NCBI RefSeq assembly: GCF_027359925.1
Contig: NZ_CP114767.1
Coordinates: 124,001 to 188,000 of the forward strand
Direction of reading: 5' to 3'
DNA: 64,000 bases
Source of the DNA: Hymenobacter canadensis
GTDB lineage: Bacteria; Bacteroidota; Bacteroidia; Cytophagales; Hymenobacteraceae
A program made the translations under genes and the position numbers. The notes beneath the pieces are model-generated. The model was not told where the DNA came from and did not search any database. It saw only the letters and a list, made by a program, of their open reading frames with translations. Below are positions 5,701 through 20,271 of the stretch, in pieces (position 1 is the first letter of the stretch; every line of letters starts with the position of its first letter).

Positions 5701-5829
5701 CGGCGGGTCTACACTCGGGTATTCCCGGATGCTGAGGTAGCGAAACCCAATCACACCGAAAATCACGATGACGAGGCTCATCACGATTGCGAGGACGGGG
5801 CGGTTGATGCTGGTGGAGGAAAGGCTCAT
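2737..5829 (-). CDS. efflux RND transporter permease (HAE1/AcrB type)
   Basis: The 1030-residue length is typical of AcrB/MexB pumps. The N-terminus (SLSSTSINRPVLAIVMSLVI) is the first membrane helix, followed by porter domains, and the TM4 motif GLVVDDAIVVLEN carries the proton-relay aspartates at about 400-401. A second porter half starts near residue 550. An odd feature is a run of nine glycines at about 654-662, directly followed by LPVQ, in the second porter domain. The same Gly-run-LPVQ string occurs in the neighbouring adaptor. The drug or metabolite exported cannot be told from sequence; heavy-metal (CusA) type is unlikely given the HAE1-like motifs. Confidence 0.95.
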   Translation of the reverse strand: MSLSSTSINRPVLAIVMSLVIVIFGVIGFRYLSIREYPSVDPPIITVSASYTGASADVMQGQVTEPLEEALNGIAGIKNLTSNSRDGRTQITVEFDLDADLETAANDVRDKVSGAQGRLPRDIDPPIVSKANADSQPIVMTYLSSSKRTLLELTDYANNALKERLQTIPGVSEVRVYGERKYSMRLWMDPVKLSALGVSPVDVQAALTRENVELPSGSVQGQNTQLTLRTMGRLTSVEDFNNLIIRKDASSLVRLSDIGYAELYPENDQTIFKVNGVPMVGLAVIPQPGSNQIDIADEFNKRIELYGKDLPKDLVLKPGFDNSVFIRKSITEVEHTIIEAFVLVVIIIFLFLRDWRSTLIPVVAIPVSLVGIFFVMYLLDFSINVLTLLAVVLAIGLVVDDAIVVLENIYSRIEEGEDPKTAAIKGSEEILMAVISTTVVLAAVFLPVVFLTGITGRLFREFGIVVAGSVLISAFVSLTLTPMMCSVLLKRQEKHNWFYRKTEPFFQKMIGGYQSSLQTFLRNRWMAWLVVLGTGVGIWFFMKAIPSELAPVEDRSRVNVNATGPEGASFEYMDAYMNQITKMAMDSAGSSLSSVFAVTSPGFGGGSNSGTARVLLLDADQRPRNQDQVAAGLSAGVKKLTAARTSVSQDQSIGGGGGGGGGLPVQFVIQTQDFEKLRAAVPKFLDAARQDPTFQFVDVNLKFNKPELRVNIDREKAQSLGVSVQSISQTLQSGLSGQRFGYFIREGKQYQIIGQVAREDRNQPLDVRLLSVKNADGQLVQLDNVIRLTESSTPPQLYRFNRYNSATFSASLAPGKTLGDGIAAMQSIAEKNLDDTFSTELSGASRDFQESSSSLVFAFGLALVLIYLVLAAQFESFRDPVIIMVTVPLALSGALLSLWYFNQTLNLFSQIGIIMLVGLVTKNGILIVEFANQQVENGKDYMTGLIEGATARFRPILMTSLCAILGILPIAIATGAGALSRRAMGIGVVGGLFFATGLTLYVVPVMYSYFATAKKHSQKQEAAKKKAVTA

Positions 5830-5937: not shown

Positions 5938-7092
5938 CTTGGTGGCCTTCACCGCGTCGCCGGGTTTCACCTGCAGAATGCCGGTGCGAATTACGGAGTC
6001 GCCTACGGCCAGGCCGTCGGTGATTTGAATCACCTTATCGGAGCGGATGCCAATCTTGATTTTCTTGGGTACCATCTTGCCGTCCTTCACGGTGTAGACG
6101 CTGTAGCCGCTGGCCTCCGGAATTACGGCTTCCGTCGGCACCTGCAGCGCGTCGGTGGATTCGCCGAGCTGTAGGTTCACTTTCACGAAAGCGCCGGGGC
6201 GCAGCTCGTTGTTGGTGTTGGCGTAGCGGGCGCGCACCGGCTGGGTGCGGCTCACGGGGTCAATCTGCGGGTCGATGGCGTAGACCTTGGCCTCGTACTT
6301 CTTGTTAGTGCCTTCGTCGGTGATGCTCACTACGTCGCCCACGCGCACTTTGGTAGCAAAGCGGCCCGGTACAGCAAAGTCGATTTTCACGGGCCGCACG
6401 CGGGAAAGGGTCGTTATTTCAGAGCCTGGGCTCACGTAGGTGCCCACGGTGGCCGTGGTCAGGCCCAGCACGCCGCTGAACGGCGCCCGTACGTAGGCCC
6501 GGTCCAGCGAGGCCTGCAGCGCCTTCAGGTCCGACTGCGCCGTGAGCAGCTGGTTGTTGGACTGCTCGTACTCCTGGGCGCTGATGTACTCCTTGTCCAG
6601 CAGCGTGCGCTGGCGCTTTTCTTGGTCGCGGAAGAGCTTGATGTTGTACTGCTGCTTGCGGATGGCCGCCTGGGCCTCATCGGCGTTGATGCTGAACAGC
6701 AACTGGCCCTTGCTCACCGGCTGGCCTTCTTTTATGTTCAGGCTGGTGATTTTGCCCGATAGCTCACTTTTGATAACCACCGACTCGTCGGCCAGAATGG
6801 AGCCGGTGGCCGCTACCTCGTCGGAGAGGTTGGTCGGCTTCACCACATACACCTGCACCGGCAGGCCACCGCCCCCGCCACTTTTGCCGCCCGGGGCACC
6901 CTTGCCACCGCCAGCCGCCCCTTTACCGCCGCCTTTGACATCGGCGTTAGGAGAGGGGAAATACGTTATCTTGACGAACGCCAGCGCGGCAATGAGTACC
7001 ACGGCAATGATCAGCCAGCGCAGCCCGTGGCTTTTGCCGGGGGTTTCTTCGGCGGCCTGTAGTTCTGCTGGTTCGTGTTCCTGAGTCTGCAT
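5935..7092 (-). CDS. RND efflux periplasmic adaptor subunit (HlyD/MexA family)
   Basis: First gene of the efflux operon. The 385-residue product has a short cytoplasmic N-terminus, one membrane anchor (about 25-43), a Gly/Lys linker (53-76), then barrel-sandwich and lipoyl halves (SGKITSLNIKEGQPVSKGQLLF; APFSGVLGLTTATVGTYV) flanking a coiled-coil hairpin (about 160-195), and a beta-barrel and membrane-proximal domain at the end. It should bridge the pump (2737-5829) and TolC (1262-2695). The linker ends in Gly-run-LPVQ, as in the pump. The TAA stop lies in a palindromic repeat that separates this gene from the pump gene by about 105 nt. Confidence 0.92.
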   Translation of the reverse strand: MQTQEHEPAELQAAEETPGKSHGLRWLIIAVVLIAALAFVKITYFPSPNADVKGGGKGAAGGGKGAPGGKSGGGGGLPVQVYVVKPTNLSDEVAATGSILADESVVIKSELSGKITSLNIKEGQPVSKGQLLFSINADEAQAAIRKQQYNIKLFRDQEKRQRTLLDKEYISAQEYEQSNNQLLTAQSDLKALQASLDRAYVRAPFSGVLGLTTATVGTYVSPGSEITTLSRVRPVKIDFAVPGRFATKVRVGDVVSITDEGTNKKYEAKVYAIDPQIDPVSRTQPVRARYANTNNELRPGAFVKVNLQLGESTDALQVPTEAVIPEASGYSVYTVKDGKMVPKKIKIGIRSDKVIQITDGLAVGDSVIRTGILQVKPGDAVKATK

Positions 7093-7273
7093 AGTTGAGT
7101 GTCGGAGTTCTGTCCGTCTGCGGCGGCCCCTGGTCGTGCGGGCCGGGCAACGGATGACAACGCGAATCAGCCGGCCGGGGTTTACTTCCCCACCCGACTG
7201 GTCGGGCCAGCCATGCGCTTAAGACACCGAAATCAACCCCGGGTTGCGCCCGTGGCCGGAAATTGTGGGGTGG

Positions 7274-7362: not shown

Positions 7363-7716
7363 ATGATTCCGCGTAATCCTACGGAAGCTCACCGCAATTT
7401 CTTTCAGGAAGTGCACGAAGTAGTGCGCCTGGTGCCGGCCGGCCGCGTAACCACCTACGGCGCTATTGCCCACTACTTAGGGGCCCGGCACGGCGCCCGC
7501 ATGGTGGGCTGGGCCATGATGGCCGCCCACACCGCCGACGCGTACGTGCCAGCTCACCGCGTCATCAACCGCAACGGCCAGCTCACCGGCCGCCTGCACT
7601 TCGCCACGCCTACCGCCATGCAGGAAGCCCTGGAAGCCGAAGGCGTGCGCGTGCTGGATGATGAGGTGCAGGATTTCCGGCGCCTGTTCTGGGACCCCAC
7701 CACGGAACTGGAGTAG
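7363..7716 (+). CDS. MGMT-fold alkyltransferase-like protein lacking the reactive cysteine
   Basis: The 117-residue product matches the DNA-binding domain of O6-alkylguanine-DNA alkyltransferases: a helix-turn-helix (GRVTTYGAIAHYLG, about 28-40), then the active-site loop. Where true enzymes have PCHR, this reads PAHR (Ala64), so it cannot accept an alkyl group. Alkyltransferase-like (ATL) proteins have Trp or Ala here; they bind O6-alkylguanine, flip it out and hand the lesion to nucleotide excision repair. That role is inferred by family. The start at 7363 fits the domain; the upstream frame contains a promoter-like box. The gene converges with the frameshifted gene at 7722 with a gap of 5 nt. 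Confidence 0.85.
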   Translation: MIPRNPTEAHRNFFQEVHEVVRLVPAGRVTTYGAIAHYLGARHGARMVGWAMMAAHTADAYVPAHRVINRNGQLTGRLHFATPTAMQEALEAEGVRVLDDEVQDFRRLFWDPTTELE

Positions 7717-7721
7717 CGGCG

Positions 7722-9109
7722 CTAGTTGGCCGGCTTCCGTTCGCGGGCTTTGATGTGCTTGAGCTGGAAAAGACCTTCCTTGGCTGCCACTGGCTGCACG
7801 GTTGGCGCCGCGGCGCCGCTGCCCGGGGCGCAGGCCAGAAACGTAGTGGTACCGAACAGGGGCATAAACGTGTGGCATTTTTCCTGTTCGCCCTGCACGC
7901 AGATAGCCATGTCGCGGCGCTTGTCGCGCCAGTTCAAGGCCAGGTATTGGCCGGGTCCCAGCTGGCCCGCCTCTTTGCCGTCCACCAGCACCCGCAGGGG
8001 CGTGGCAGGCCCGGCGTCGGCGCGGCGGTACAGGTAGATGGCGGCAGTGTCGGCCGCGGCGGCAAAACCGTCTGCGCCGACGGGCTGCAGGCTGGTAGCT
8101 ACCCGTCCCGAGGCTAGGCGTAGCTCGTACAGCTGCGGCTGGTTGGTGCCGATGCTGCCGGCAATGGCCGCGCCGGCCAGGCGGCCGCCCAGCATGGCCC
8201 CGGCCAGCACGTTGCTGCCGTCGGGCTGCCGGAAGCCGACGAAGCTGTAGTAGTTGGCAGCGGCCTGCAAGGGTAGCGGCCCTGGTAGAAGATATAGACT
8301 TTCTCGCCGTCGCTCAGGCCCCAGGCGCCGCGCACCAAGCGGCGGGGCTGGTCGTCGCTGAGGTGCAGGTACCAGGCTTCCACTTCTTCGGTGCCGGCCC
8401 ATTGTGCGCCCTTGCGGGTTTTGCGCTGCAGCTCAAACGGCCCGGCCGTAAGCGTGGGCGCGTTCTGGCGAAACTCCTCAAACGACCGGTAGATGCCGCG
8501 CTGCAGCGGCTGGGTCTGCACCGGGAAGCGCGGCAGCGCACCTTCTTCGCCGGCCAGCACCTGCGCCCACGTCAGGGTGGGGGCGGTGGCGGGCGGCACG
8601 GCAGTAGCCAGGCGCTGCAGGCTTTGCTGCACGGCGCGGCGGATGTTGTCGGGGTGTTTGCTGGTGACATCCAGGCCTTTGCCCTCCACAAGTTCCGCTG
8701 TGCTGAGCAGCAGCCGGTAGGTATCGGGGCTAGTGGCTTCCAGAAAGTCCATTTCCACCTCGGCGCTGCCTGTCTCCGACATGGCCGTGATGGTTTCGTG
8801 TACATTCAGGGCGTAGATGCGCACCACCACCGGCCGGGTCGTCGGGCCGGCCGGCAGAGCCTGCTTGAGCATGGGCGTCAGCTCGGTTTCCAGGCTGCCG
8901 CCCAGCACGGCGGGCACTAGGTGGTTGTCGAGGCCGCGGTGTACGCTGCCGATGCTGGAGTGGTCGGGGCGGGCATCCACCAGCTTATCGAAGTGAAAGG
9001 CTGTGCCGGCGGCCGGCAGAACCTGCTGGGCGAGGCTGATTTCCAGTTTGGTGCTTTGGGAATAGCCGGCCAGGGGCAACAATAGCAGCGGTAAGTAGAG
9101 AAGCTTCAC
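7722..9109 (-). pseudogene. frameshifted secreted protein, paralogue of 9166-10506
   Basis: Two overlapping frames together make one protein. The upstream frame runs from a GTG start at 9109 (signal peptide KLLYLPLLLLPLAGYSQ) to about 8270. The downstream frame continues from LQAAANYYSFVGFRQPDG to the TAG at 7722. Near 8270-8280, inserting one base rejoins them in the order seen in the intact neighbour, so a 1-nt deletion or a sequencing error is likely. The shared architecture is an N-terminal part with a DARPDHSS / DARASAE-like motif, a central FEFRQNAP segment, an AWG(L/F)xDGxx(V/I)YI(F/R)xxxxY segment, and a C-terminal part ending in a short charged tail. The function is unknown. If it is only a sequencing error, this is a normal CDS of about 462 aa. 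Confidence 0.7.
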
Positions 9110-9165
9110 GAGGGATGAGTGAAAATCCAGAAACAAAGAATAAAAAGCTACTTGGCGCAGTACGC

Positions 9166-10506
9166 TCAGCGGCTGGCCATGCGCGTTACTTGGGTTTTGC
9201 CTTCGCGCACCGGCACCAGCTGCAAAGCAGCGGGTGCCCCAGGCTGGTACTCGATGTAATTGGCTTCGCTGAAGCTCGGCGTTAACTCCAGACAGGCATC
9301 GGTACCCACGCACAGGCGCACCGGTTGGTTGCTGTCGTGCCAGGGCAGCGAAAGATAATCGCCTTCCCGCAGTTCGCCAGCCGCCTGGCCATTGAGTTGT
9401 ACCGGCAGCGGGGGAGCATTTTTCTGGCGCCGCCTGTACACCATCAAATGGGTAACCAGGCCTTCTTTGTTCAGGGAAATCAGGTTCGATGGGCCCGCGT
9501 AATTGGTGGTAAGCCCACTGAATAGATTAAGCGAATAGGCATGCTTGGGCGGCCCACCATTGAAAAGCAGCGTGTTATTGTTGTTGTAGAGCGCCGGCGC
9601 AAAAAAGAGAAAGGCCGCGCCGCGCTTTTCCAGCAAAAAGTAATCAGCGCCGAAACGGATGTATATCTGCTGGCCGTCGCAAAAGCCCCAGGCTTGTTCT
9701 ACCGCCACATGCTGGCCTTCCGGTGTGAGCATAAACGGGGCCACGGCGCGCAGCCCCTGCCACTCGGCGGTCTGGTAGGCGCGGGCATCGGCTTGCACGT
9801 TGCCCGGCCGGCCCGGTGCATTGTAGCGAAACTCGAAAAAGTTGCTGTACACACCCGGGCGCAGGCACTCTTCGCTCTGAATCGCATAGGGTTGGGTTGG
9901 TAGCCGGCGTTGCAGCGCCGCTGCCTGGCAGCGCGGGTTAGCCGTCAGTTGCGCCGCCCAGTCGACGCCCGCCATCTGCTGTAAGCTGGCCTCCAGCAGT
10001 GCCCCCAGGTTAGCTATATGGCTGTTTTTCGGCTCCGCGCTGCTGATAAGCTGCGTGGTGCGGGAGGTGCGGCACAACAGGTAATAAGTGCTATCGGGCT
10101 GGCGGGCGTACCATTCGGCGGAAAGCTCAGCCGCCATTTGCACGCGAAAGTTGCCAACGGGGGCCTCCGCCACGCCCATAGACAGAATGCGCAACACCAC
10201 AGGCCGGGCCCCGGCAGCTGGAAGGCGGTTGTGCAGGAGCCCGGCTAGTTCCGGCACGAAACCCTGCTGCAGCTGTACTTCCCGCAACGTGCTGTTCAGG
10301 CCGCGCACTACCAGGCCCAGCGGCTCGGCGCTAGCCCGCGCGTCAATCACCTGCTCCACATACACGCCCGGTACGGAAAGATTCTGCAGTTCGGTCTGCA
10401 GGCTGATGACCACAGGCGCGCCTGTTGAAAGCTGAGCAGTAGCCGGGCCGCAACCCATACATAGCAGAAAGCTGATGCCGATTTGCAGCAAGAATAATAG
10501 GCGCAT
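9166..10506 (-). CDS. secreted or lipid-linked protein of unknown function, intact paralogue
   Basis: The 446-residue product has a signal sequence (RLLFLLQIGISFLLCMGCGPATAQ). CMGC could act as a lipobox, otherwise cleavage falls after TAQ. The body aligns by eye along its whole length with the frameshifted gene 7722-9109 (shared FFEFRYNAP / FEEFRQNAP and AWGFCDGQQIYIRF / AWGLSDGEKVYIFY), so the two are a tandem duplication. Divergence is high, so the duplication is old. No enzyme motif is recognised. A TTTG-20-TACATTTG promoter lies at 10559-10590 on the same strand, and the paralogue follows 56 nt downstream, probably in the same transcript. Confidence 0.75.
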   Translation of the reverse strand: MRLLFLLQIGISFLLCMGCGPATAQLSTGAPVVISLQTELQNLSVPGVYVEQVIDARASAEPLGLVVRGLNSTLREVQLQQGFVPELAGLLHNRLPAAGARPVVLRILSMGVAEAPVGNFRVQMAAELSAEWYARQPDSTYYLLCRTSRTTQLISSAEPKNSHIANLGALLEASLQQMAGVDWAAQLTANPRCQAAALQRRLPTQPYAIQSEECLRPGVYSNFFEFRYNAPGRPGNVQADARAYQTAEWQGLRAVAPFMLTPEGQHVAVEQAWGFCDGQQIYIRFGADYFLLEKRGAAFLFFAPALYNNNNTLLFNGGPPKHAYSLNLFSGLTTNYAGPSNLISLNKEGLVTHLMVYRRRQKNAPPLPVQLNGQAAGELREGDYLSLPWHDSNQPVRLCVGTDACLELTPSFSEANYIEYQPGAPAALQLVPVREGKTQVTRMASR

Positions 10507-10669: not shown

Positions 10670-13435
10670 ATGAAAAAACCCTTACTGTCTTTTTTACTTG
10701 CTTCTCTGACTGTCGTGTCGGCGGCAGCACAAAGTACTTTTTCCATCCGGGGCCGGGTGCTCGATAAGCTCACCGGGGAAGGCCTGCCCGGGGCCACCGT
10801 GCAGATCAGCGGCAACGGCGTGAACACCGGTGCCGGCACCGAGGTAAACGGCTCCTACACGGTGCCCAACCTCAAGCCCGGCACCTACGTGGTGAAGGCC
10901 TCGTTCATCGGCTACAAGCTGAGCGAGCAGAAAGTGACGATTGGCAGCCAGAACGCCGTGGCTACCTTCTCGCTGAACTCCGACAACGCCACGCTCAGCG
11001 AGGTGCAGGTAGTAGGCTCGCTCGGTATTGCCGTGGAGCGCTCCACGCCGGTGGCCTTTTCGGCGGTGAACGAGGTGAAGCTGCGCGAAACGCTGTCTAA
11101 CCGCGACCTGCCGATGATTCTCAACGAAACGCCCGGCGTGTATGCCACGCAGGGCGGCGGCGGCACCGGCGACTCGCGCATCAACATCCGCGGCTTCGAC
11201 CAGCGCAACGTGGCCGTGATGGTGAACGGCGTGCCCGTCAACGACATGGAAACCGGCCAGGTGTTCTGGTCGAACTGGGATTTGGGCGACGTGACCAAGA
11301 GCCTGCAGGTGCAGCGCGGCCTGTCGGCTTCGCGCATTGCGGTGCCCTCGGTGGGCGGCACCATCAACGTGCTGACGCGCGGCTTCGACGACAAGCGCAG
11401 CATGTTGGCTCGCCTCGAAACCGGCTCCAACAATTACCGCAAAGCCTCCCTGATGCTGAGCAGCGGCGCGCTAAAGGGCGACTGGGCCTTCACGTTCTAC
11501 GGCTCGCGCCGCACCTCCGACGGTTGGGTGACTAATGCTTTCGACGACGCCTGGACCTACTTCGGCAACGTCAGCAAGAAGCTGGGCAGCCACCGCCTCT
11601 CGCTCACGGGCCTGGGCTCGCCGCAAAGCCACGGCACCCGCTCGTTTCAGTCGAACGTAGGGCTGTACTCGGAGGCGAAGGCCCGCGAGCTGGGCGCTAC
11701 ACCTATGGCCAACGGCGACAAAGGCTTCAAGTACAACCCGTTCTGGGGCACGCTGCAGCGCTATGACTACGACCGCGCCACCAGGACCGTGAGTAATGTG
11801 CAGGGGGAGAAAGTGCTGAATGAGCGCAGCAACTTCTACCACAAGCCCCAGATCAACCTCAACGACTTTTGGCAGGTAAACGACAAGCTGTTCGTCTCGA
11901 CGGTGGTGTATGCTTCCTACGGGCGCGGCGGCGGCGTAAGCGGCCTGACCAGCGGCAACTCCAGTACCATCAGCACCATTTCGACCACCGGCCAGACAAA
12001 CTTCCAGGGTATTTACGATGCCAACATCGGCCTGCCCACGCCTGCCAACGCCGACCCCAATCCCACCCGCCGCTCCACGCAGTTCTTGGTGAATAACGTG
12101 AACAGCCACCGCTGGTATGGCTTCGTGACCGGGGCCGACTACACGCTTTCCGACAAGCTCACGCTGTCGGCCGGCGTAGATGGGCGCACCTACTACGGCC
12201 TGCACTACCGCGAAATCCGGGATTTGCTGGGTGGCAACTATGCTCTCCCAATCGGTGACCGGAATTCCGACCCTACCACACGGCTTGGCGTCGGCGACAA
12301 GCTTAGCTACAACTACGACGGCAAAACGCAGTGGCTGGGCGGCTACGGCCAACTCGAATACAAAACGCCGGTGCTGTCGGCCGTGGTGAGTGGCACAATA
12401 TCGCGCATCGGCTACAAGCGCATTGATTATTTCCAGGCCAAAACTGTGGACGTGGACGGTGCCAAGCGCCCCGTGGGCTTCGGCCAGACCTACACCGCCG
12501 CCGACGGCCAGGTGTACACCAATGCCGACGGCAGCACCGTGGAAACTGACTGGGCCCGCTACACCGGCTACAGCGTGAAGGCCGGGGCCAACTACAACCT
12601 CAGCGAGTTCAACAACCTGTTTCTGAACGTGGGCTACAATAGCAAGGTGCCCTTCTTCAACCAGGTGTACACCACGCAGGGCCTGCTCTACCCGAACGTG
12701 CGCCCCGAAGGCATCACCAGCATCGAGCTGGGCTACAGCATCAACTACCCTAGCATGAAGGCCACGCTGAACACGTACTACACGCTGTGGGCCAACAAAG
12801 CTACCAACTCGGTGAACACTACCTCCGGCGAGGCGATATACAGCAACGTGCGCAACGTGGATGCCCGCCACATGGGCGTGGAGCTGAGCGTGGCGCAGGA
12901 AATCAGCCGCCGCCTGCAGCTGAACGCCGCCATTGCCCTCGGCGACTGGCGTTGGATTGGGGAAGGCCTGCTCAACCAGACCGACGAAGGCGGCAACCCC
13001 GCTCCCGGCACCCAGCTCGACGAGCGAGTGTACCTCGACAACACCCACGTAGGCGACGCCGCCCAAAACCAGTTTCAGCTAGGCTTGCGCTACGAGCCGA
13101 TCCGGGGCCTGTACATCCGGCCATCGTTTCTGCTGTTCACCAAGTACTACGCCGCCTTCAACCCCGAGAGCATCCGGAATCCGGCCACCCGCACCGACTC
13201 CTACCGCCTGCCTACCAGCCGCAACCTCGACTTGCACTTCGGCTATGACATCAAGCCGCTGTTCAACGACCGGGTGAAGCTGGGCCTGAAGGCCTCCATC
13301 CTCAACGTGCTGGACGAATACTACTTCACCGACGTCTCGAACCGCAACAACTCCAACGTCATCGACCCCAACCTGATTCAGGCCTTCTTCAACCGGGGCC
13401 GCACGTTCACGGTCGGCCTGTCGGCTACGCTGTAG
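10670..13435 (+). CDS. TonB-dependent receptor with carboxypeptidase-like regulatory domain
   Basis: The 921-residue product has a signal peptide (to about AAAQ, residue 21), then a CarboxypepD_reg-like beta-sandwich (FSIRGRVLDKLTGEGLPGATVQI, about 25-105). A plug follows (about 125-235: ETPGVYATQ..., INIRGFDQRNVAVMVNGVPVNDME, GGTINVLTRG), and then a 22-stranded outer-membrane barrel ending in a hydrophobic residue (TVGLSATL). It imports a substrate across the outer membrane with TonB energy. No SusD-like partner lies nearby, so it is unlikely to be a polysaccharide locus, and the substrate is unknown. The stop codon TAG merges into a GAGTAGCTGAGTAG-type repeat. Confidence 0.93.
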   Translation: MKKPLLSFLLASLTVVSAAAQSTFSIRGRVLDKLTGEGLPGATVQISGNGVNTGAGTEVNGSYTVPNLKPGTYVVKASFIGYKLSEQKVTIGSQNAVATFSLNSDNATLSEVQVVGSLGIAVERSTPVAFSAVNEVKLRETLSNRDLPMILNETPGVYATQGGGGTGDSRINIRGFDQRNVAVMVNGVPVNDMETGQVFWSNWDLGDVTKSLQVQRGLSASRIAVPSVGGTINVLTRGFDDKRSMLARLETGSNNYRKASLMLSSGALKGDWAFTFYGSRRTSDGWVTNAFDDAWTYFGNVSKKLGSHRLSLTGLGSPQSHGTRSFQSNVGLYSEAKARELGATPMANGDKGFKYNPFWGTLQRYDYDRATRTVSNVQGEKVLNERSNFYHKPQINLNDFWQVNDKLFVSTVVYASYGRGGGVSGLTSGNSSTISTISTTGQTNFQGIYDANIGLPTPANADPNPTRRSTQFLVNNVNSHRWYGFVTGADYTLSDKLTLSAGVDGRTYYGLHYREIRDLLGGNYALPIGDRNSDPTTRLGVGDKLSYNYDGKTQWLGGYGQLEYKTPVLSAVVSGTISRIGYKRIDYFQAKTVDVDGAKRPVGFGQTYTAADGQVYTNADGSTVETDWARYTGYSVKAGANYNLSEFNNLFLNVGYNSKVPFFNQVYTTQGLLYPNVRPEGITSIELGYSINYPSMKATLNTYYTLWANKATNSVNTTSGEAIYSNVRNVDARHMGVELSVAQEISRRLQLNAAIALGDWRWIGEGLLNQTDEGGNPAPGTQLDERVYLDNTHVGDAAQNQFQLGLRYEPIRGLYIRPSFLLFTKYYAAFNPESIRNPATRTDSYRLPTSRNLDLHFGYDIKPLFNDRVKLGLKASILNVLDEYYFTDVSNRNNSNVIDPNLIQAFFNRGRTFTVGLSATL

Positions 13436-13645
13436 AGTAGCTGAGTAGTGGAGTAACTGAGTAATTTCTGTGTCTTAACGCAAAAGCGCCTGCTTCCTCA
13501 TGAGGAGCAGGCGCTTTTGCGTTGGTGGAACCTGAATGCTTTTGGAGCTTGCGGAAACACGAAAGCGCCGGCCTCCTTCAGGAAGCCGACGCTTTTGAGT
13601 TTTTGACAAAAAACATACTCCGCTACTCCATTACTCAGTTACTCC
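13432..13645. repeat. GAGTAACTGAGTA-type inverted repeat between convergent genes
   Basis: A low-complexity arm built of units like GAGTAACTGA / GAGTAGTG at 13432-13465 recurs in inverted orientation at about 13615-13645. The left arm contains the stop of the TonB-dependent receptor gene; the right arm encodes the last residues and stop of the response regulator. Two stem-loops lie between the arms. Confidence 0.7.
13478..13523. terminator. stem-loop terminator after the TonB-dependent receptor gene
   Basis: Arms of about 22 bp (one-base bulge) around 13500/13501, with AAAAGCG / CGCTTTT ends. A second stem with the same AAAGCG-type base lies at about 13562-13597 and could serve the convergent response-regulator transcript. 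Confidence 0.7.
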
Positions 13646-14053
13646 CAAAGGAGCCAGCGCGGGGCGGGACTCGTTGTTGTTGTAGGCGGCCAGAATGGCG
13701 CCGCGCACTTCTTCAGGGTTGGCGTTTTTGAGCAGGTAGCCGTGGGCGCCTTCGGCTTTGAGGCTCTCAATCAGCTCGGGCTCGTCGTGCATGGAGATGA
13801 TGATGACGCGGATGTACGGGTATTGGGCCCGCAGCAGGCGCACGGTCTGCAGGCCGTCGAGGTTGGGCATCTGCAGGTCCATGAGAATGACGTCGGGCCG
13901 GTTGCCCTGGTCGAGGCGCTCCAGCAGCTCTTCGCCGTCGCCGGCTTCGAAGAGCACTTCCATGCCCGGAAACCCGCTGATCAGGGCGCGCAGGCCCTTG
14001 CGGAACAGGATATGGTCGTCGGTAACGGCAAGTCGAATAACAGGAGGTGTCAT
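13631..14053 (-). CDS. receiver-only response regulator (NarL/FixJ-type receiver without HTH)
   Basis: The 140-residue product is a complete CheY-like receiver: acidic pair D12-D13, phospho-acceptor D59 in VILMDLQMP, Ser87 in IIISMHD and K109 in YLLKN. NarL-type partners normally continue with a LuxR helix-turn-helix of about 65 residues. Here the chain stops about 20 residues after the receiver, and the last codons (GVTE, TAA) are part of the GAGTAACTGAGTAA repeat. No HTH remnant can be read downstream. Its ATG overlaps the stop of the histidine kinase (ATGA), so the two are translationally coupled. It could be a true single-domain regulator or one truncated by the repeat. Confidence 0.85.
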   Translation of the reverse strand: MTPPVIRLAVTDDHILFRKGLRALISGFPGMEVLFEAGDGEELLERLDQGNRPDVILMDLQMPNLDGLQTVRLLRAQYPYIRVIIISMHDEPELIESLKAEGAHGYLLKNANPEEVRGAILAAYNNNESRPALAPLGVTE

Positions 14054-14865
14054 AGGGTAGGAGAAAGGGCAGGAGCCTGATTGGTAGTAAGATACGGAAT
14101 GGGGCAGGATATCCAAACGCGGCTGCCACCCCCGGTTTCCGACTCGTAGCGGAGGGTGCCTTGCAGCACCGCCACGCGGCTGCGCAGGTTGGTGAGGCCG
14201 TGGCCGGTGCGGGCGCCGGGCAGTGGGGCTGCTTCCACCAGCGCCGGGTCGAAGCCGACGCCGTTGTCGGAGTAGAAGACGGAAAGGGTATTGGGGCCGA
14301 ATTCGACGGCAATGTGGATGGTTTCGGCGTGGGCGTGGCGCAGGCCGTTGCCGAGCAGCTCCTGCACCACGCGGTACACAATCAGCTCGTACTTGGGGTC
14401 GAGGCGCCGGGGCTGGCCTTTCTGCTCCAGGGTGAGGTGGGTGGCACCGTCGGCGGGCACGGTGCGGGCCAGGGCATCTAGGGCAAACGGCAGCCCGAAC
14501 TTCTGCAAGGCGGCCGGCAGCAGGTTGCGTGAGATACGCCGCACTTCGGTAATGGCTTGGTCGAGGAGGGCGGTGGCTTCCTGGGTGTGCGTAGGCTGGC
14601 CCAGCGTGCTCAGGTGCAGCTTCACGATGGCCAAGGTGGTGCCCACGCCGTCGTGCAGGTCGGCGGCAATGCGGCGGCGTTCTTCTTCCTGCGCCAACAG
14701 GGCCGCTTCAAGGGCTTGCTGCTGGCCCATTTCGCGGGCCAGCCGCAGCTGCTCCTGCTGCCGTAGTAGCCGCCGCTGGTAGCGCAGCACAAACGCCACG
14801 ATACCCAACGCCAGCAGCAGCAGCACCGGAGTAGCCAGCAGCACCGGAATCAGCCAGTTGTTCAT
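14050..14865 (-). CDS. sensor histidine kinase, HisKA_3 type, with a single membrane helix
   Basis: The 271-residue product has one N-terminal membrane helix (about 5-28), a coiled-coil linker (30-60), and the HisKA_3 dimerisation motif EEERRRIAADLHDGVGT with phospho-accepting H71. It then has an HATPase_c domain with N box (ELLGNGLRHAHA, N173) and G1 box (DNGVGFD, D200). There is no periplasmic or cytosolic sensory domain, so the signal probably comes from a partner; the three seven-helix proteins encoded upstream on the same strand are the obvious candidates. It should phosphorylate the receiver at 13631-14053, whose start codon overlaps this stop. Confidence 0.92.
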   Translation of the reverse strand: MNNWLIPVLLATPVLLLLALGIVAFVLRYQRRLLRQQEQLRLAREMGQQQALEAALLAQEEERRRIAADLHDGVGTTLAIVKLHLSTLGQPTHTQEATALLDQAITEVRRISRNLLPAALQKFGLPFALDALARTVPADGATHLTLEQKGQPRRLDPKYELIVYRVVQELLGNGLRHAHAETIHIAVEFGPNTLSVFYSDNGVGFDPALVEAAPLPGARTGHGLTNLRSRVAVLQGTLRYESETGGGSRVWISCPIPYLTTNQAPALSPTL

Positions 14866-15088
14866 GAAGGCGAAAGAGACGAACGCCGGGCGGCGCAGGT
14901 AATGTGCGAAGCAGACAAGGAGTAGGAAACGAAAACGGCCAGGTGAATAGGTAAAGCTACTATGTTTTGCTCCAGTAGCCTACGCTACTACCCGCAGGTT
15001 AGGGATGGGAAAGTACGCCACGCGCCTCGAAATCACCACAGCCGCCACGGATTTTAGGCAGACTGCTGCTGCGGGCCGGGCCGGCAAC

Positions 15089-15796
15089 CTACCGTGGCAA
15101 GACTACGCCGACAGCAGCCGGCGGCGGGTGGCGGCCCAGCCAGAACGCCCGCGTCAGCAGCAGGTGCAGTACCAGATTGACGACTCCAAGCCCCGTGTAC
15201 ACTATGCGCCCCACGCTGGCCGTGATGAGGTGCCGCGCCAGAAACAGCATGAGCGTGCTGGAATAGAACAGCAGAAATCCTACACTCACTACAAACATGG
15301 CATCCTGCCACAAGCTCATAGGGCGCAATTCGGTCAGGCACTGCTCGAAATACAGAAGCATCAACCCGATAACCAGCAGGTGCTTAAGCAGAGTGGTATA
15401 AGTGTCGTTGAAGATGAGCGTCTGCGTGATGGCCTGCCACAGACCGCTTATTGCAAAAAAGTCGAACAGCGCCAGTGCCGTGAACACCACCCCAATCAGC
15501 GGAAAGTAGCGCCGCCAGGGCAACCGTAGCGTGTGATAGTAAGCTGCGCCAATAAACCAGAATTCCAGAATTTCAACTGACTGGTTTATGCCATTGTTGT
15601 TGCCCCAGGCCCAGCCGGCATATTCGCTGAAACTCATCATAGCCAGCCACATCAGGCAACAGTACACCAGAATGCGCAAGTTGCGCGGCAGCTGCTGCCG
15701 CCACATCCACCCAGTCACCACCGGTAATAGAATGGACGACTGACAAACCAGGAACAGCACCTTCAACAAATACATGATGTTGCTCGGGTGGGGCAT
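15089..15796 (-). CDS. seven-helix membrane protein, third tandem copy
   Basis: This 235-residue protein has about seven hydrophobic helices and a conserved core, CCLMWLAMMSFSEYAGWAWGNNNG, then AAYYHTLRLPWRRYFPL and LLYFEQCLTEL. It is nearly collinear, with no length change, with the product of 15884-16591, so these two are a recent tandem duplication; 16674-17393 is an older copy. The start at 15796 is set by alignment with that copy (MPHPSNIMYLL vs MPDLSDIMYWL), not by the longer open frame to 15883. The protein is probably the membrane sensor for the kinase encoded downstream across a 223-nt gap (inference). No enzyme motif is seen. A shorter gap of 87 nt separates it from the preceding copy. 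Confidence 0.75.
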   Translation of the reverse strand: MPHPSNIMYLLKVLFLVCQSSILLPVVTGWMWRQQLPRNLRILVYCCLMWLAMMSFSEYAGWAWGNNNGINQSVEILEFWFIGAAYYHTLRLPWRRYFPLIGVVFTALALFDFFAISGLWQAITQTLIFNDTYTTLLKHLLVIGLMLLYFEQCLTELRPMSLWQDAMFVVSVGFLLFYSSTLMLFLARHLITASVGRIVYTGLGVVNLVLHLLLTRAFWLGRHPPPAAVGVVLPR

Positions 15797-15883
15797 AGCA
15801 AGCGGAAGCAACGAGAAGGAAACGGCTCGTAAGGCAATCCACGGCGTAAGGTACACCATGAAGCTGCCCGTCGGCACCGCCAC

Positions 15884-16591
15884 CTACCGTGGTGTGGCCG
15901 CGGCGGCGGTAGCCGGCAGCGGTTGCCGACCCAGCCAGAAAGCCCGCGTCAGCAGCAGGTGCAGTACCAGATTGATGACGCCCAGCCCTGCGAATGCTAG
16001 GCGGCGCTCGGGTCCTAGAATCAGGTGCTTGGTCAGGAATAGCATGAGCGTGCTGGTGTAGAATAGCAAGAATCCTACACTCACCACAAACATAGCATCC
16101 TGCCACAGGCTTATGCGGCGCAGTTCCGTCAGGCACTGCTCGAAATACAGCAGCACCAGCCCGATCATCAGGATATAGCGCAGTAGAGTGGCATAGTAGT
16201 CGTTGAAAATAAGCGTTTGCGTGATGGCCTGCCACAGGCCGCTGAGCACAAAATAGTCGAACAGCGCCAGCACCGTAAACGTCACCCCAACCAATGGAAA
16301 GTAGCGCCGCCAGGGCAACCGCAGCGTGTGATAGTAAGCCGCGCCAATAAACCAGGGTTCCAAAGTGTCGACCAACTGATAGACCCCATTGTTGTTGCCC
16401 CAGGCCCAGCTGGCGTATTCGCCAAAGCTCATCAACACCAGCCACATCAGGCAGCAACTAACCAGTATGCGCAGACTGCGCGGCAAGCGTCGTCGCCACA
16501 GCAGCCCGGCCATCACTGGTATCAGAATGGATGCTTGGCAGACGAGATACAGCACCCGCAGCCAGTACATGATGTCGCTCAAGTCTGGCAT
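15884..16591 (-). CDS. seven-helix membrane protein, second tandem copy
   Basis: This 235-residue, roughly seven-helix protein shares long identical runs with the third copy (GAAYYHTLRLPWRRYFPL; SGLWQAITQTLIFND; SLWQDAMFVVSVGFLLFY). The DNA is also very similar, so duplication is recent. Charged or polar residues inside membrane segments are conserved among all three copies: the Glu in FGEYA/FGEFA, the Trp-Phe-Ile-Gly-(A/V)-Ala-Tyr block and the Tyr-Phe-Glu-Gln block. These could bind a ligand or pair with a partner helix. From memory, similar proteins of about 220 residues are often found beside small histidine kinases in Bacteroidota. No characterised function is known to me. Confidence 0.75.
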   Translation of the reverse strand: MPDLSDIMYWLRVLYLVCQASILIPVMAGLLWRRRLPRSLRILVSCCLMWLVLMSFGEYASWAWGNNNGVYQLVDTLEPWFIGAAYYHTLRLPWRRYFPLVGVTFTVLALFDYFVLSGLWQAITQTLIFNDYYATLLRYILMIGLVLLYFEQCLTELRRISLWQDAMFVVSVGFLLFYTSTLMLFLTKHLILGPERRLAFAGLGVINLVLHLLLTRAFWLGRQPLPATAAAATPR

Positions 16592-16673
16592 GGTAAACGT
16601 AGCAGGAAGGAAAGACGATTCGTAAGATACCTGCCCTGCTAGCCTGAATGGCGAGGCGGCTCTACGGCCGCGG

Positions 16674-17393
16674 CTAAGCTGGCCGCTGAGCCGTGGCCGC
16701 CGTCAGCGGCTCCACGGCCAGCTGCGGCTGCCGCCCCGCCAGCCAGAAGCCCCGCGCAATAAGCCCGTGCATGACCAGATTGAGCACGGAGTTGACGGCG
16801 TAGACTATTTGTGATTGTAAGATGGCATCCTGATCAATAAAATAGCCCCGCATCATTATGGCTACGACTGTACCGGCGTAGTACAGCAATAAAGCCACGC
16901 TGATGACAAACATCGGGTCGTGCTCCAGCCGGATATTGCGCAGTTCCCGCAGTATTTGCTCGAAATACAGTAGGGTCAGCACCACAAAGAGGGTGCTTTT
17001 AAGCACAATCGTGTAAGTTATTGACCGCATCAGCCCGTGCAACACAAAAATGTCCAGTAGAGCAAATGCCGTGTACAGAATACCCAGCGGCAAAAAGTGG
17101 CGGCGGAGCCGGAACCGCAGGACTCGGTGGTAGGCTACCCCGATAAACCACATTTCTAGGATATCTACCGCATCCCAGATGACTACATTGTAATGCCAGA
17201 ATTTGCGAGCGAATTCTCCGAATGCCATCATTACCAGCCACATCAGGCAGCAATAAAAGATGATACGAGAAGCCGGCGCCAGCCGCTGTCGGCGCTGAAA
17301 CCCAATCACTATTGGCACTAGTATCGACGCTTGGCCAAGGTAACTCAATGCGTAGAACAGTTGAATCAGCTTAGCGGATTCCGGCGTCGACAT
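16674..17393 (-). CDS. seven-helix membrane protein, first and most divergent tandem copy
   Basis: The 239-residue product has the same helix pattern and signature blocks as the two copies downstream (FYCCLMWLVMMAFGEFA, MWFIGVAYHRVLRFRLRRHFLPLG, LLYFEQILREL, MFVISVALLLYYAG), but with many substitutions; for example, WAWGNNNG becomes FWHYNVV. The start at 17393 lies 10 nt after the stop of the small soluble protein gene, which indicates one transcript. The difference between the copies suggests that each could respond to a different ligand, or form hetero-oligomers (speculation). The C-terminus is Ala/Thr/Gln-rich and probably cytosolic. Confidence 0.75.
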   Translation of the reverse strand: MSTPESAKLIQLFYALSYLGQASILVPIVIGFQRRQRLAPASRIIFYCCLMWLVMMAFGEFARKFWHYNVVIWDAVDILEMWFIGVAYHRVLRFRLRRHFLPLGILYTAFALLDIFVLHGLMRSITYTIVLKSTLFVVLTLLYFEQILRELRNIRLEHDPMFVISVALLLYYAGTVVAIMMRGYFIDQDAILQSQIVYAVNSVLNLVMHGLIARGFWLAGRQPQLAVEPLTAATAQRPA

Positions 17394-17403
17394 AGCAGCA
17401 GGA

Positions 17404-17736
17404 TTAGTGTTGCAGTGGGCTGGCTACGTGGTTAGGAGGCGTGACCTGCCCACCATCAAACAGCTTGTTGCCGTCGTCTACCAGGTCGGTGGAGGAGTTG
17501 GCACTCACCAGCACCATCGTATCGGTGCTGCCGTTATTGGCCAAGTAGATCCGGATGCCTTTGCCTCCCTGCGCTATGAGCTCCGTGAAGACGCTGCTGG
17601 AGAAGTACACCGAGCGCAACTTGTCTGGATTGTCGTGCTGGTAGGTGCCGGTCCAGGTTTTTGCTTCGTCGAGGGTGATGCTCTGGCCGATGGTTGCCTC
17701 GTCGTCGTCGGAGTAGGAGCGGATTGTAGGGTTCAT
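17404..17736 (-). CDS. small soluble protein heading the seven-helix/kinase cassette
   Basis: The 110-residue product has no signal peptide or membrane helix. It shows a patterned domain (IGQSITLDEAKTWTGTYQHDN; SSSVFTELIAQGGKGIRIYLANNG; TMVLVSANSSTDLV) and a Pro-rich end (GGQVTPPNHVASPLQH). From memory a Bacteroidota family has the same order: an amphipathic start, a GIRIYY-like strand, then a VGVN-like strand and a proline tail, often beside seven-helix membrane proteins; it is uncharacterised. The start at 17736 is preferred over 17805 because a TATATTTG promoter box lies at 17807-17814, so the longer form would begin inside the promoter. It is the first gene of the operon. Confidence 0.65.
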   Translation of the reverse strand: MNPTIRSYSDDDEATIGQSITLDEAKTWTGTYQHDNPDKLRSVYFSSSVFTELIAQGGKGIRIYLANNGSTDTMVLVSANSSTDLVDDGNKLFDGGQVTPPNHVASPLQH

Positions 17737-17806
17737 GCGCAACAGGTAAACGGTGTGTAAAGCAGGAGGGCGGAATGGAACAAAAACAGTATGGATTTGA
17801 GCCATT

Positions 17807-17837
17807 CAAATATAGCTGAAACCCCATTGTATGCAAG
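17807..17837 (-). promoter_or_regulatory. Bacteroidota promoter (CTTG, 19 nt, TATATTTG) for the signalling cassette
   Basis: On the minus strand CTTG (17834-17837) is followed after 19 nt by a perfect TATATTTG (17807-17814). The predicted leader to the ATG at 17736 is about 65 nt. Confidence 0.6.
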
Positions 17838-17880: not shown

Positions 17881-18168
17881 CTAGAACAGCAGGCCGCCGC
17901 TGGTGTCGCGCGGGGTTTTGGGGGCGCGCTTGGTGGGTGGCGTAGGGGCGGGGGCTTCGGGCTCGGGCAGTTCTTCGTCCTGGTCGAGGTTCTCGAAAAC
18001 CCGGTCAATGGCGTCTTCGGCGGTGCGCAGCTTCTGCTTGCAGAGGCGGATGAGCGTGGCCGAGCGCTGCACGCGGGCCGTCAGCTCGTCCACATCCACA
18101 GTGTCGGTTTCGAGGGCCCGCAGAATGGTTTCCAGTTCGGCTATAGCGTCGCGGTAGGTGGTTTCCAT
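17881..18168 (-). CDS. xseB: exodeoxyribonuclease VII small subunit
   Basis: The 95-residue product has the short helical hairpin of XseB (TYRDAIAELETILRALETDTVDVDELTARVQRSATLIRLCKQKL), which binds the helical arm of XseA in exonuclease VII, a single-strand DNA nuclease. After about residue 68 comes an acidic, Pro/Ala-rich tail longer than in Escherichia coli XseB. It lies 83 nt downstream of xseA on the same strand, the usual order. A perfect inverted repeat sits in the gap and could attenuate expression of this subunit. Confidence 0.92.
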   Translation of the reverse strand: METTYRDAIAELETILRALETDTVDVDELTARVQRSATLIRLCKQKLRTAEDAIDRVFENLDQDEELPEPEAPAPTPPTKRAPKTPRDTSGGLLF

Positions 18169-18209: not shown

Positions 18210-18253
18210 GATGGGGTGATGAAGTGATGACCTCATCACTTCATCACCCCATC
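18210..18253. repeat. GATGGGGTGATGAAGTGATGA inverted repeat
   Basis: Perfect 21-bp arms (18210-18230 and 18233-18253) with a 2-nt loop, built of GTGATGA-like units. The right arm overlaps the TGA stop codon of xseA (18252-18254). Confidence 0.75.
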
Positions 18254-19592
18254 ACTTCCTCGTCATTTCCAGCAGCCGGATTTCGGCGCGGTGGAGCAGG
18301 CGCTCAGCTGCCAGCTGCAGTTGGAAGCGCCGCGTGAGCAGCTGCTCGCGGCGGCGGCGGTGCAGGTAGCGGAAGCGCCGGGCCAGCAGCTGGCCCAGGC
18401 GGCGCAGGTGGCGGTGCTGGTCTTCGGCCGCGTGGTGGGCGGCCCGCTGCAAGGCCTGCCGCTGCTGGCTCAGCAGCACCTCCTGCTGCCGCAGGCGCTG
18501 CCGGGCCAGCGGCGCGGTAGCGCGCACGCGCTGGCGCAGGGCTGTGTGGTGGTCTTGCAGGCAGCCTTGCGCCGATTGGTGGGTGCGGCGGCCCAGGCGG
18601 TCGAGGTGGGCGGCGGCGGCATAGAGGCTCTGTTGGGCCAGCTCCTGCACCCGGGCGCCATAGCTCTCGAACACGGCATCGAGGCGGGCCAGCCTTTCGG
18701 AAAGGAAGGCGGCCACGGCAGTCGGCGTTTTCAGGGCCAGGTGTGCGGCCATGTCCACCACGGCCTCGTCCCGCTCGTGCCCGATGCCGGTGAGCACGGG
18801 CAGCGGAAACGCGCCAATGGCGGCCGCCAGCCCGTAGTCGTCGAAGGCCAGCAAATCGGTTTTGGAGCCGCCACCCCGAATGATAACCACCGCATCAAAC
18901 CGCTGGCGGTGGGGCCGGATGGCATCCAGCGCGGTCCGGATGCTGGCCGGCGCGTCGTCGCCCTGCATGGCGGCCGGAAACAGGGCCAGCGAAAACGCAT
19001 ATGCCGACTCCTCCAGCTGGCGCACGAAATCCTGGAAGCCCGCCGCCGTCGGCGACGAAATGATGGCCAGCCGCTGCGGGGCCAAAGCCAGCGGCAACGC
19101 CCGCTGCCGCTCCAGCAGGCCTTTTTCTTCGAGCTTACGAATGGTTTCGAGGCGCTGCCGGGCCAGCTCGCCCACAGTGTAGGTGGGGTCGAGGGCCAGC
19201 ACGTCGAGGCTCAGGCCGTACTGCTCATGAAACTTCACCTGCACCCGCAGCATAATTTTCAGGCCGGGGCGCAGCTCCTGACCGGTGTGCTCGGCGAAGG
19301 CCGGAGCCAGCTGCTGGTAGCGCTGGCTCCAGATGGTGGCGCGGGCCTGGGCCTTGAGCTGGGCGCCGCGGCCGGTCTGGTGCTGGTCGGTGAGAGTGAG
19401 GTAGCAGTGGGCGCCGGCAAAGCGCGGCAGTGTGAGGTCGGCAATTTCGGCCACCACCCAGTAGGAGTCGGCAAACCGCTCAGTCAGGGTCTGCTTCACG
19501 CGCAGCAGCAGCTCGGCCAGCGGCAAAGCCACGGGCGGCGCGGCAGGGGCGGGCAAACCCGGTTCGGAACGGCGGTTGTAGAGCGGTGGCAT
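18252..19592 (-). CDS. xseA: exodeoxyribonuclease VII large subunit
   Basis: The 446-residue product has an N-terminal OB fold (residues about 15-110: LLLRVKQTLTERFADSYWVVAEIADL, then HCYLTLTD), and the catalytic domain with ISSPTAAGFQDF, VVIIRGGGSKTDLLAFDDYGLAAAIGAFPLPVLTGIGHERDEAVVD and ALKTPTAVAAFL. A long Arg/Gln-rich coiled arm follows for XseB binding. The start at 19592 fits the OB fold; a TACCTTTA box (19599-19606) lies only 6 nt upstream, so the mRNA may be almost leaderless. The TGA stop falls in the adjoining inverted repeat. The product degrades single-stranded DNA in repair. Confidence 0.95.
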   Translation of the reverse strand: MPPLYNRRSEPGLPAPAAPPVALPLAELLLRVKQTLTERFADSYWVVAEIADLTLPRFAGAHCYLTLTDQHQTGRGAQLKAQARATIWSQRYQQLAPAFAEHTGQELRPGLKIMLRVQVKFHEQYGLSLDVLALDPTYTVGELARQRLETIRKLEEKGLLERQRALPLALAPQRLAIISSPTAAGFQDFVRQLEESAYAFSLALFPAAMQGDDAPASIRTALDAIRPHRQRFDAVVIIRGGGSKTDLLAFDDYGLAAAIGAFPLPVLTGIGHERDEAVVDMAAHLALKTPTAVAAFLSERLARLDAVFESYGARVQELAQQSLYAAAAHLDRLGRRTHQSAQGCLQDHHTALRQRVRATAPLARQRLRQQEVLLSQQRQALQRAAHHAAEDQHRHLRRLGQLLARRFRYLHRRRREQLLTRRFQLQLAAERLLHRAEIRLLEMTRK

Positions 19593-19650
19593 GGGCCGTA
19601 AAGGTAGGGCCTGCGCGCCGCCCATGCCAGCGCGGGCGCCAGCGCAAACG

Positions 19651-20271
19651 CTAGCGGCGGGCCAGCGGCTGGAACCGGTAGCCCACCTGCAGGCCCACGC
19701 CGCCCTCAATCCACACACCCTGCGTGCGGTTTGTCGAAGCGGACGGCCGCCGCCGTAGGTTCACGCCCAGATAGCTGTCGAGCGTCAGGCGGCGGCCCAA
19801 CGACGACTGCCGGCCCAGCAGGAACTGCACCTGCGCGGTGGTGCGGGAGAGGTTGTAGTTCAGGTTGGTGTAGCGGGAATGCTGCTCCCTGCTGTTGCGC
19901 AGGTAGGTGTGCAGGTTGGCGGCCGCAAACCAGCCGGCCAGCGGCCGGATCGTGTGGCGCCGGAAGTAGCGGCGCAGCTGCACGTTGGTGTTGTAGTATC
20001 GCTCCCGTGTCGTGTAGTTGTCCTCTATGATGCTGCCGTCGTAGTCGTAGAAGATGGTGCCGCTGCGCCGCGAGTAGCCCAGGTAGCCCACGCTGCCCAG
20101 CACCGACCACTGGCTTGACAGCTGCCGCTCGTAGGTCAGGGCAAAGAAACCGGGCCCGAAACCCTGTATGCCCAGCTTGATAATCTGCCGGGGTGGGGTG
20201 GCAGCAATGGTCGTGTCGGGCGCAGGCAGCAGGGCGGCGGCGCTCAGGGCCAGCACGTAGCAAGCAGGCAT
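19651..20271 (-). CDS. predicted outer-membrane beta-barrel protein (DUF3575-like)
   Basis: The 206-residue product has a signal peptide (PACYVLALSAAALLPAP) followed by alternating aromatic/polar strands (GIQGFGPGFFALTYERQLSSQWSVLGSVGYLGYSRRSG, then repeated amphipathic strands to GGVGLQVGYRFQPL). This is the pattern of a small 8-stranded barrel. The resemblance to DUF3575 is weak and by eye. The start at 20271 is chosen because the upstream frame lacks a signal sequence. The gene is 58 nt upstream of xseA on the same strand and might be co-transcribed. It diverges from the GT2 gene. Confidence 0.6.
   Translation of the reverse strand: MPACYVLALSAAALLPAPDTTIAATPPRQIIKLGIQGFGPGFFALTYERQLSSQWSVLGSVGYLGYSRRSGTIFYDYDGSIIEDNYTTRERYYNTNVQLRRYFRRHTIRPLAGWFAAANLHTYLRNSREQHSRYTNLNYNLSRTTAQVQFLLGRQSSLGRRLTLDSYLGVNLRRRPSASTNRTQGVWIEGGVGLQVGYRFQPLARR

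Follow-up and report, generated by a model that had tools for sequence, protein, structure and literature searches.

A candidate four-component signalling system of the Bacteroidota with a free-standing seven-helix receptor, encoded in Hymenobacter canadensis

A 64,000-nucleotide (nt) stretch of the Hymenobacter canadensis genome (5.09 Mb; contig NZ_CP114767.1, positions 124,001 to 188,000; hereafter the window) contains a set of six genes on one strand (13631-17736) that quite likely encodes a four-component system of the Bacteroidota, in which a partner protein, a free-standing seven-helix receptor, a one-helix histidine kinase and a response regulator act together as proposed below. The genes are linked and some of their frames overlap, the catalytic residues are conserved, partner and receptor co-vary, and the seven-helix protein was modelled with confidence. 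In 5' to 3' order on the minus strand, the set comprises the following genes.

17404..17736, minus strand: small partner protein, 110 amino acids (aa), with a GIRIYL core
16674..17393, minus strand: seven-helix protein copy A, 239 aa
15884..16591, minus strand: seven-helix protein copy B, 235 aa
15089..15796, minus strand: seven-helix protein copy C, 235 aa, 74% identical to copy B
14050..14865, minus strand: histidine kinase, 271 aa, with HisKA_3 (residues 62-119) and HATPase_c (residues 162-256) domains
13631..14053, minus strand: response regulator, NarL-type and receiver-only, 140 aa, its ATGA start overlapping the kinase gene

The intergenic gaps are 10, 82, 87 and 223 nt, followed by the ATGA overlap; since start codons were set by rule in the scripts, these gaps and the protein lengths carry some uncertainty.

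Recurrence of the gene set in Hymenobacter and across the phylum

Copy A was used as the query against 59 genomes and matched 34 of them, namely 33 of the 37 genomes of the genus (that of H. canadensis included) and one other. All 55 places in the genus beyond that of the window were extracted with their flanks, giving 56 clusters in all. A kinase gene lies directly downstream of the seven-helix gene in 47 of these clusters, and both kinase and regulator are present in 38. Among the 47 kinases, 25 overlap the seven-helix frame, 44 have no more than 300 aa and 45 have exactly one predicted helix. A related partner is encoded upstream in 46 of the 56 clusters: in 44 of the 47 that have a kinase, versus 2 of the 9 that have none.

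Three arrangements were distinguished. Type A, located by xseB, has the order small protein, seven-helix protein, in some cases a second small protein, seven-helix protein, kinase and receiver-only regulator, with one to three seven-helix copies. The order xseB, small protein, seven-helix gene or genes, kinase, regulator is shared by all 19 named Hymenobacter loci whose kinase identity is at least 68%, and thus the six-gene arrangement is not due to chance. Type B, located elsewhere, has a long partner, a seven-helix protein, a kinase and mostly a regulator of about 222 aa, and the seven-helix and kinase frames mostly overlap by 22 nt; a GerE domain was found in the single type-B regulator scanned (L064). 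In the third type (L034 of the H. canadensis genome itself, L045 and L059), a partner and a seven-helix protein precede a kinase matching HisKA, with scores of 27.1, 25.5 and 33.1 bits, respectively (cut-off 26.9, two of the three being above it). These three kinases open with a helix similar to that of the HisKA_3 kinases (22 of 37 residues shared between L034 and L037, counted by eye), which suggests that the kinase core has been exchanged and the N-terminal helix retained. L034 (C1:3489000-3501500) comprises a lipoprotein-like partner, one seven-helix protein and the HisKA-type kinase; no adjoining regulator was found there. In L038, L051 and L063, seven-helix genes without a kinase of their own stand behind a ligase-like gene, which we take to be Mpl-like.

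Beyond the genus, an even sample of 395 Bacteroidota genomes from 170 genera (one genome per species) was searched. The seven-helix profile matched 73 genomes in 40 genera, 39 of them besides Hymenobacter, and the small-protein profile matched 49 genomes in 26 genera; 46 genomes have both families, 3 the small protein only, 27 the seven-helix protein only, and 319 neither. Small-protein matches stand directly upstream of a seven-helix match in 56 of 67 cases overall and in 50 of 61 outside the genus. A kinase gene lies directly downstream in 104 of the 117 seven-helix clusters outside the genus, with a regulator in 90, and of these 104 kinases 74 overlap the seven-helix frame, 95 have no more than 300 aa and 98 have exactly one predicted helix. 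The loci outside the genus were found by the seven-helix profile alone, and so their kinase adjacency is independent of how loci were chosen. For the whole set, a kinase is directly downstream in 151 of 173 clusters and a related partner is upstream in 127, the latter in 33 of 37 (L157-L192) and 48 of 80 (L272-L351) outside the genus; the partner profiles drew on loci of the genus, on L153-L192 and on database proteins, and two of these profiles used upstream open reading frames (ORFs) picked by position, so that the count for L272-L351 is the one independent of profile building. Three loci with weak seven-helix matches that the profiles did not recover (L089, L347, L351) and two kinase controls from the H. 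canadensis genome (L091, L092) were dropped from the cluster counts, and L153-L156, belonging to the same genus, were left out of the outside-genus counts. In L184 (genome G191), a lipoprotein-like partner precedes two tandem seven-helix genes, and no kinase or regulator was recognised within 11.6 kb.

The original prediction had described six same-strand genes with these gaps and the ATGA overlap, which the ORF coordinates confirm, and had stated that a small protein, a seven-helix protein and a HisKA_3 kinase recur together in Bacteroidota. The recurrence is borne out by the linkages of 56 of 67 and 104 of 117; the accompanying kinase may be of HisKA_3 or of HisKA type, behind a similar N-terminal helix. 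Two refinements concern the regulator, which is longer outside type A, and the partner, which varies in size and in some loci has a signal peptide. Seven-helix families scattered without kinases, which had been named as evidence against the prediction, were looked for and are not what the 151 kinase-adjacent clusters display. The presence of three receptor copies is as unusual as had been supposed, being found in 4 of 56 clusters in the genus and 1 of 117 outside it.

The component proteins and their co-variation

The seven-helix protein is probably the receptor. The family average has seven hydrophobic segments and the model of copy B (predicted local distance difference test score, pLDDT, 91; predicted template modelling score, pTM, 0.88) has seven long helices, which form a bundle with a possible resemblance to those of rhodopsins and G-protein-coupled receptors (GPCRs); its best alignments are to receptor-type seven-helix folds. 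A helix scan of single sequences gave 7, 6 and 6 helices for the window copies, and among 85 members 6 helices in 33, 7 in 29 and 5 in 19. The loops between helices 1 and 2 and between helices 3 and 4 are positive, as is the C-terminus, so the N-terminus is predicted to lie outside and the C-terminus inside.

None of the known families searched accounts for these proteins. The window seven-helix copies and the window small protein have no Pfam or NCBIfam family above the cut-off, and searches of the Protein Data Bank with the profiles of both families gave no sequence match (best E 4.9 and 0.74), in agreement with the earlier view that the system is largely undescribed. Against Pfam and NCBIfam, the 85 seven-helix relatives gave scattered weak families only, the commonest in 2 of 85, with single members matching an antiporter subunit model down to E 0.0008. 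The 67 small-protein relatives likewise gave scattered weak families against Pfam, the commonest in 8 of 67; the NCBIfam scan of this family covered the window copy.

Three known seven-helix families were considered and rejected. Microbial rhodopsins bind retinal through a lysine in helix 7, and in each of the window copies helix 7 contains no lysine, with helix limits taken from the model. HisKA_7TM (PF16927) has no Pfam match in the window copies, and hhalign comparison with 24 of its members gave 1.9% and 3.0%, the controls giving 100% (HisKA_7TM halves) and 99.9% (seven-helix family of the genus versus that outside); UniRef labels two of the seven-helix relatives HisKA_7TM, a family absent from the 25 of 42 families listed for the 85 relatives. 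7TMR-DISM (PF07695) matched 2 of 85 members weakly (best E 0.014) and gave 6.6% and 1.9% when 28 of its members were compared (100% for its own halves as control), a comparison that would miss very distant kinship, since 7TMR-DISM and HisKA_7TM themselves score only 9.5%. LiaF and VraT are likewise absent from the 25 of 42 families listed, no direct profile comparison having been made.

The small partner protein was modelled as a folded alpha-beta domain (pLDDT 89, pTM 0.77), and its GIR core and the proline of its C-terminal tail rank with the best-conserved features of the family. The window copy has no signal peptide that could be seen, and its tail reads TPPNH where many relatives have CPPxC; among eight database relatives the tail lacks cysteine in six and carries a single one in two, and thus the pair of cysteines is dispensable. 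The partner ORF preceding the seven-helix gene in most type-B loci is longer, at 216-305 aa, and its tail contains PP; several partners outside the genus start like lipoproteins. A crude scan found a signal-peptide or lipobox-like start in 12 of 127 partners. Profile-profile comparison with the small protein gave 96.2% (E 2e-9) for the long partners, over their second half, and 93.6% (E 2e-7) for the lipoprotein-like partners, and by this measure both groups are related to the small protein. In L041 (6949-7692), a 247-aa partner with a lipoprotein-type N-terminus and two tandem small-protein domains is encoded between two seven-helix genes. The small-protein gene of L078 and the kinase gene of L039 look split into two frames.

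In the kinase, a single hydrophobic helix (residues 8-26) and a charged stretch precede HisKA_3 (39.9 bits, cut-off 24), with the phospho-acceptor H71 in ADLHDGVGT, and HATPase_c (55.7 bits, cut-off 26.4), the two domains characteristic of HisKA_3 kinases. Pfam and helix prediction uphold the earlier description of it as a one-helix kinase without a sensor domain. The regulator has a complete receiver with its Asp site (D12, D13, D59, S87 and K109 all present), and the corresponding residues D, D, D, S and K are found in 25 of 25 type-A regulators, all of 131-142 aa. Pfam detected the receiver only and no LuxR/GerE-type DNA-binding domain on the window regulator, so that its output must presumably be indirect, via another protein. 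In the genus and phylum sets receiver-only regulators are seen only at the type-A locus of Hymenobacter, to which they are confined, since all 90 regulators outside the genus have at least 204 aa. In a quick tree of 70 kinases (every third full-length row from outside the genus; a second, unrelated regulator of L046, included in a preceding tree, left out), the 26 kinases with a receiver-only regulator form one side of a single branch (100 in the Shimodaira-Hasegawa-like approximate likelihood ratio test, SH-aLRT). Thus receiver-only regulators have one origin, and the DNA-binding domain was apparently lost once, within Hymenobacter.

The window genes were compared with those of six named Hymenobacter loci. 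Identities are 79-93% for the kinase and 79-94% for the regulator (79-87% in five of the six for both), 79% for the small protein with its nearest relative (L193, Hymenobacter sp. BT190) and 27-45% with the other five, 74-77% for the seven-helix proteins with the nearest and 31-42% with the other five, and 94% for the neutral neighbour xseB with the nearest and 67-85% with the other five. Ratios of nonsynonymous to synonymous substitution rates (dN/dS) against BT190 lie between 0.05 and 0.10 for the kinase and regulator genes, and between 0.15 and 0.20 for those of the small protein and the seven-helix proteins (0.15 for the small protein); all six genes are under purifying selection, looser for the latter group. 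The BT190 locus has two seven-helix copies, and copies B and C of the window group together in the tree, though only moderately supported (SH-aLRT 91); they are most simply explained by a probable tandem duplication after the split from BT190, the alternative being loss of one copy in BT190. With kinase distance removed, partner and receptor distances have a partial correlation of 0.84 (30 units, 20 loci), or 0.66 for the 20 first units, and in every set, including that at phylum scale described below, 0 of 500 permutations equalled the value. Such co-variation beyond kinase distance is as expected of partners.

Proposed mechanism, rival explanations and related systems

Physical contacts, signal direction, ligand and output are parts of the scheme that we infer. 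The partner and the seven-helix protein together would form a detachable sensor of the one-helix kinase; the seven-helix protein would touch the single membrane helix of the kinase and move it, and this contact would switch the kinase between its kinase and phosphatase states. The kinase would then phosphorylate the regulator, which in type A would act on another protein, through which its output presumably passes. New kinase cores behind a similar helix, and a changing number of receptors before a conserved kinase, are as a detachable receptor predicts.

Several observations weigh against this scheme. No kinase was found within the limits used in 22 of 173 seven-helix clusters (L036 lies at a contig end, the kinase is further off in L309 and L320, and L276 and L285 are second clusters), no partner was recognised in 46 of 173, and 11 of 67 small-protein matches have no seven-helix gene downstream. 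In four loci of the genus (L047, L062, L069 and L076) the seven-helix proteins precede another two-component pair, which is PhoB/PhoR-like in L047 (the one scanned with Pfam); the kinases of the pairs in L047, L069 and L076 each have two helices. Long and lipoprotein-like partners compared with each other gave only 11.7%, which is no link, and the loop that joins helix 5 to helix 6 is not positive. The partial correlation of partner and receptor falls to 0.25 at phylum scale (58 units); xseB diverges beyond the kinase, though less than the small protein and seven-helix proteins do; and the kinase helix is conserved while the seven-helix proteins diverge, so that specificity does not lie in that helix. 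The 223-nt gap upstream of the kinase could also harbour an unrecognised promoter.

A different role for the seven-helix protein, as a transporter or lipid-interacting regulator moonlighting as sensor or inhibitor of the kinase, with the small protein as an anti-adaptor, is unlikely but not negligible. Transporter-type proteins such as UhpC and DctA moonlight as sensors or inhibitors of kinases, LiaF inhibits LiaS, and kinases elsewhere are governed by accessory membrane proteins of other build. Among the latter, LiaF is described as a negative regulator (PMC3543457). The window proteins, however, are small (235 aa) with short loops, match no transporter family above the cut-off and have a bundle that aligns best with receptor-type folds, and the moonlighting role departs from the detachable receptor just in its sign or in a transport step. 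It is rather doubtful that the small protein acts as a ligand and the seven-helix protein as its receptor, the two diversifying fast together as a bacterial counterpart of a GPCR with its partner and docking onto a one-helix kinase that stays conserved. Repeated copy gain and loss would then let several receptors of a strain feed into one kinase and, in Hymenobacter, into one regulator that has no DNA-binding domain; recognition of kin or neighbours would be possible.

That the small protein, whether exported, exposed on the surface or processed to a peptide, is itself the signal or carries it and is read by the seven-helix protein, as in peptide quorum sensing, seems improbable. It would fit the fast, joint divergence of small protein and receptor beside a conserved kinase and regulator, and the signal-peptide or lipobox-like start of some partners in other loci, but the window protein has no visible signal peptide, its conserved GIR core and tail proline are not those of a hypervariable peptide, and it has a folded alpha-beta model (pLDDT 89) and a dN/dS of 0.15 to its nearest relative. 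Hardly credible is the explanation that the genes are neighbours merely since the segment from xseAB to the efflux genes stays together in Hymenobacter: the order beside xseB is indeed fixed in 19 of 19 named loci, but the seven-helix family occurs in 39 other sampled genera, its frames often overlap those of kinases, and this explanation is contradicted by the kinase adjacency in 104 of 117 clusters outside the genus.

The detachable receptor has partial parallels among known systems. In UhpABC, the receptor-like transporter UhpC acts with the HisKA_3 kinase UhpB and the NarL-type regulator UhpA, and the likeness is that a separate polytopic membrane protein feeds such a pair. UhpC has 12 helices and is homologous to transporters, and UhpB contributes a large membrane part of its own, whereas in the Hymenobacter set the separate membrane protein has seven helices, the kinase has one, and a partner protein is added. 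VraT of VraTSR is an accessory membrane protein of a two-component pair; LiaF and VraT are of another build, and we know of no partner of the small-protein family in LiaFSR or VraTSR. The window kinase scored below threshold with the NCBIfam models of MctS (the best, 103.8 bits, cut-off 700), UhpB (87.9 bits, cut-off 408) and LiaS (68.8 bits, cut-off 450). LiaFSR likewise combines a two-component pair with the accessory membrane protein LiaF, described as a negative regulator (PMC3543457). RocA binds the kinase CsrS in the membrane via an N-terminal region with seven transmembrane domains and also has a cytoplasmic homodimerising domain (PMC6635533), whereas the Hymenobacter protein consists of seven helices alone and is co-encoded with its kinase. 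In the BtsS/LytS type, a seven-helix ligand-binding receptor with a periplasmic N-terminus controls the kinase (PMC10653868), but receptor and kinase are one protein and the regulator is of LytTR type. HisKA_7TM and 7TMR-DISM are also seven-helix receptors of bacterial signalling proteins and both are present in Bacteroidota, but mostly in long, fusion-like frames (about 500-1200 aa) and with no profile relation (1.9-6.6%).

No description of the module was found among the titles listed from the open-licence literature, subscription journals lying mostly outside that scope. Accessory membrane proteins of kinases are already known; the module would add to them a multi-component arrangement that brings a receptor family of its own. 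Numerous kinases of the Bacteroidota appear to lack a sensor, and the reason proposed is that adjoining genes of two unannotated families encode it, which would supply candidate receptors for many kinases of the phylum, 104 clusters outside the genus being present in this sample alone. The loci also offer a natural experiment in receptor modularity, with different kinase cores behind a similar helix and one to three receptors for one kinase, and a clear case of a regulator without a DNA-binding domain whose kinase and receptors are kept.

Control elements and neighbouring genes

The following features flank the six-gene set.

18252-19718: xseA (TIGR00237)
17881-18168: xseB (PF02609)
17807..17836, minus strand: Bacteroidota-type promoter, TTG-N19-TATATTTG, 71 nt upstream of the small-protein start
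13477..13523, no strand assigned: perfect 18-nt inverted repeat with an 11-nt spacer, between the regulator gene and the convergent TonB receptor gene
10670-13435: TonB-dependent receptor gene on the other flank, convergent with the six-gene set

The consensus promoter said to head the set was thus located, at 17807-17836; a generic sigma-70 scan of the window did not list it. The motif TTG-N17-23-TAnnTTTG has 3 matches in the 64-kb window versus a mean of 0.55 in 20 base shuffles. Of the 38 small-protein genes in the genus, 8 have it at a distance of 43-73 nt upstream, that of the window among them; the other 30 have no strict match upstream, nor has the 223-nt gap before the kinase. The inverted repeat is likely a terminator, although a terminator scan of the window did not list it.

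Beyond the regulator, the segment 1919-7713 contains an efflux operon of membrane fusion protein (MFP), resistance-nodulation-division (RND) and outer membrane factor (OMF) type on the minus strand, which is a possible target of the system. It has matches to an HlyD-type protein (5938-7107) and ACR_tran (2791-5829) and part of an OMF-like match (1919-2629). The first four long ORFs beyond the regulator include an MFP in 14 and an RND protein in 13 of the 19 named type-A loci, but an opposite-strand gene usually separates the regulator from the efflux operon. In the same segment, a plus-strand gene (7372-7713) matches the DNA-binding domain of O6-methylguanine methyltransferase. Two adjacent minus-strand ORFs (8114-10506) separate the TonB receptor gene from the efflux operon, and that at 9166-10506 groups with ORFs from six named type-A loci, two ORFs each in L194 and L202.

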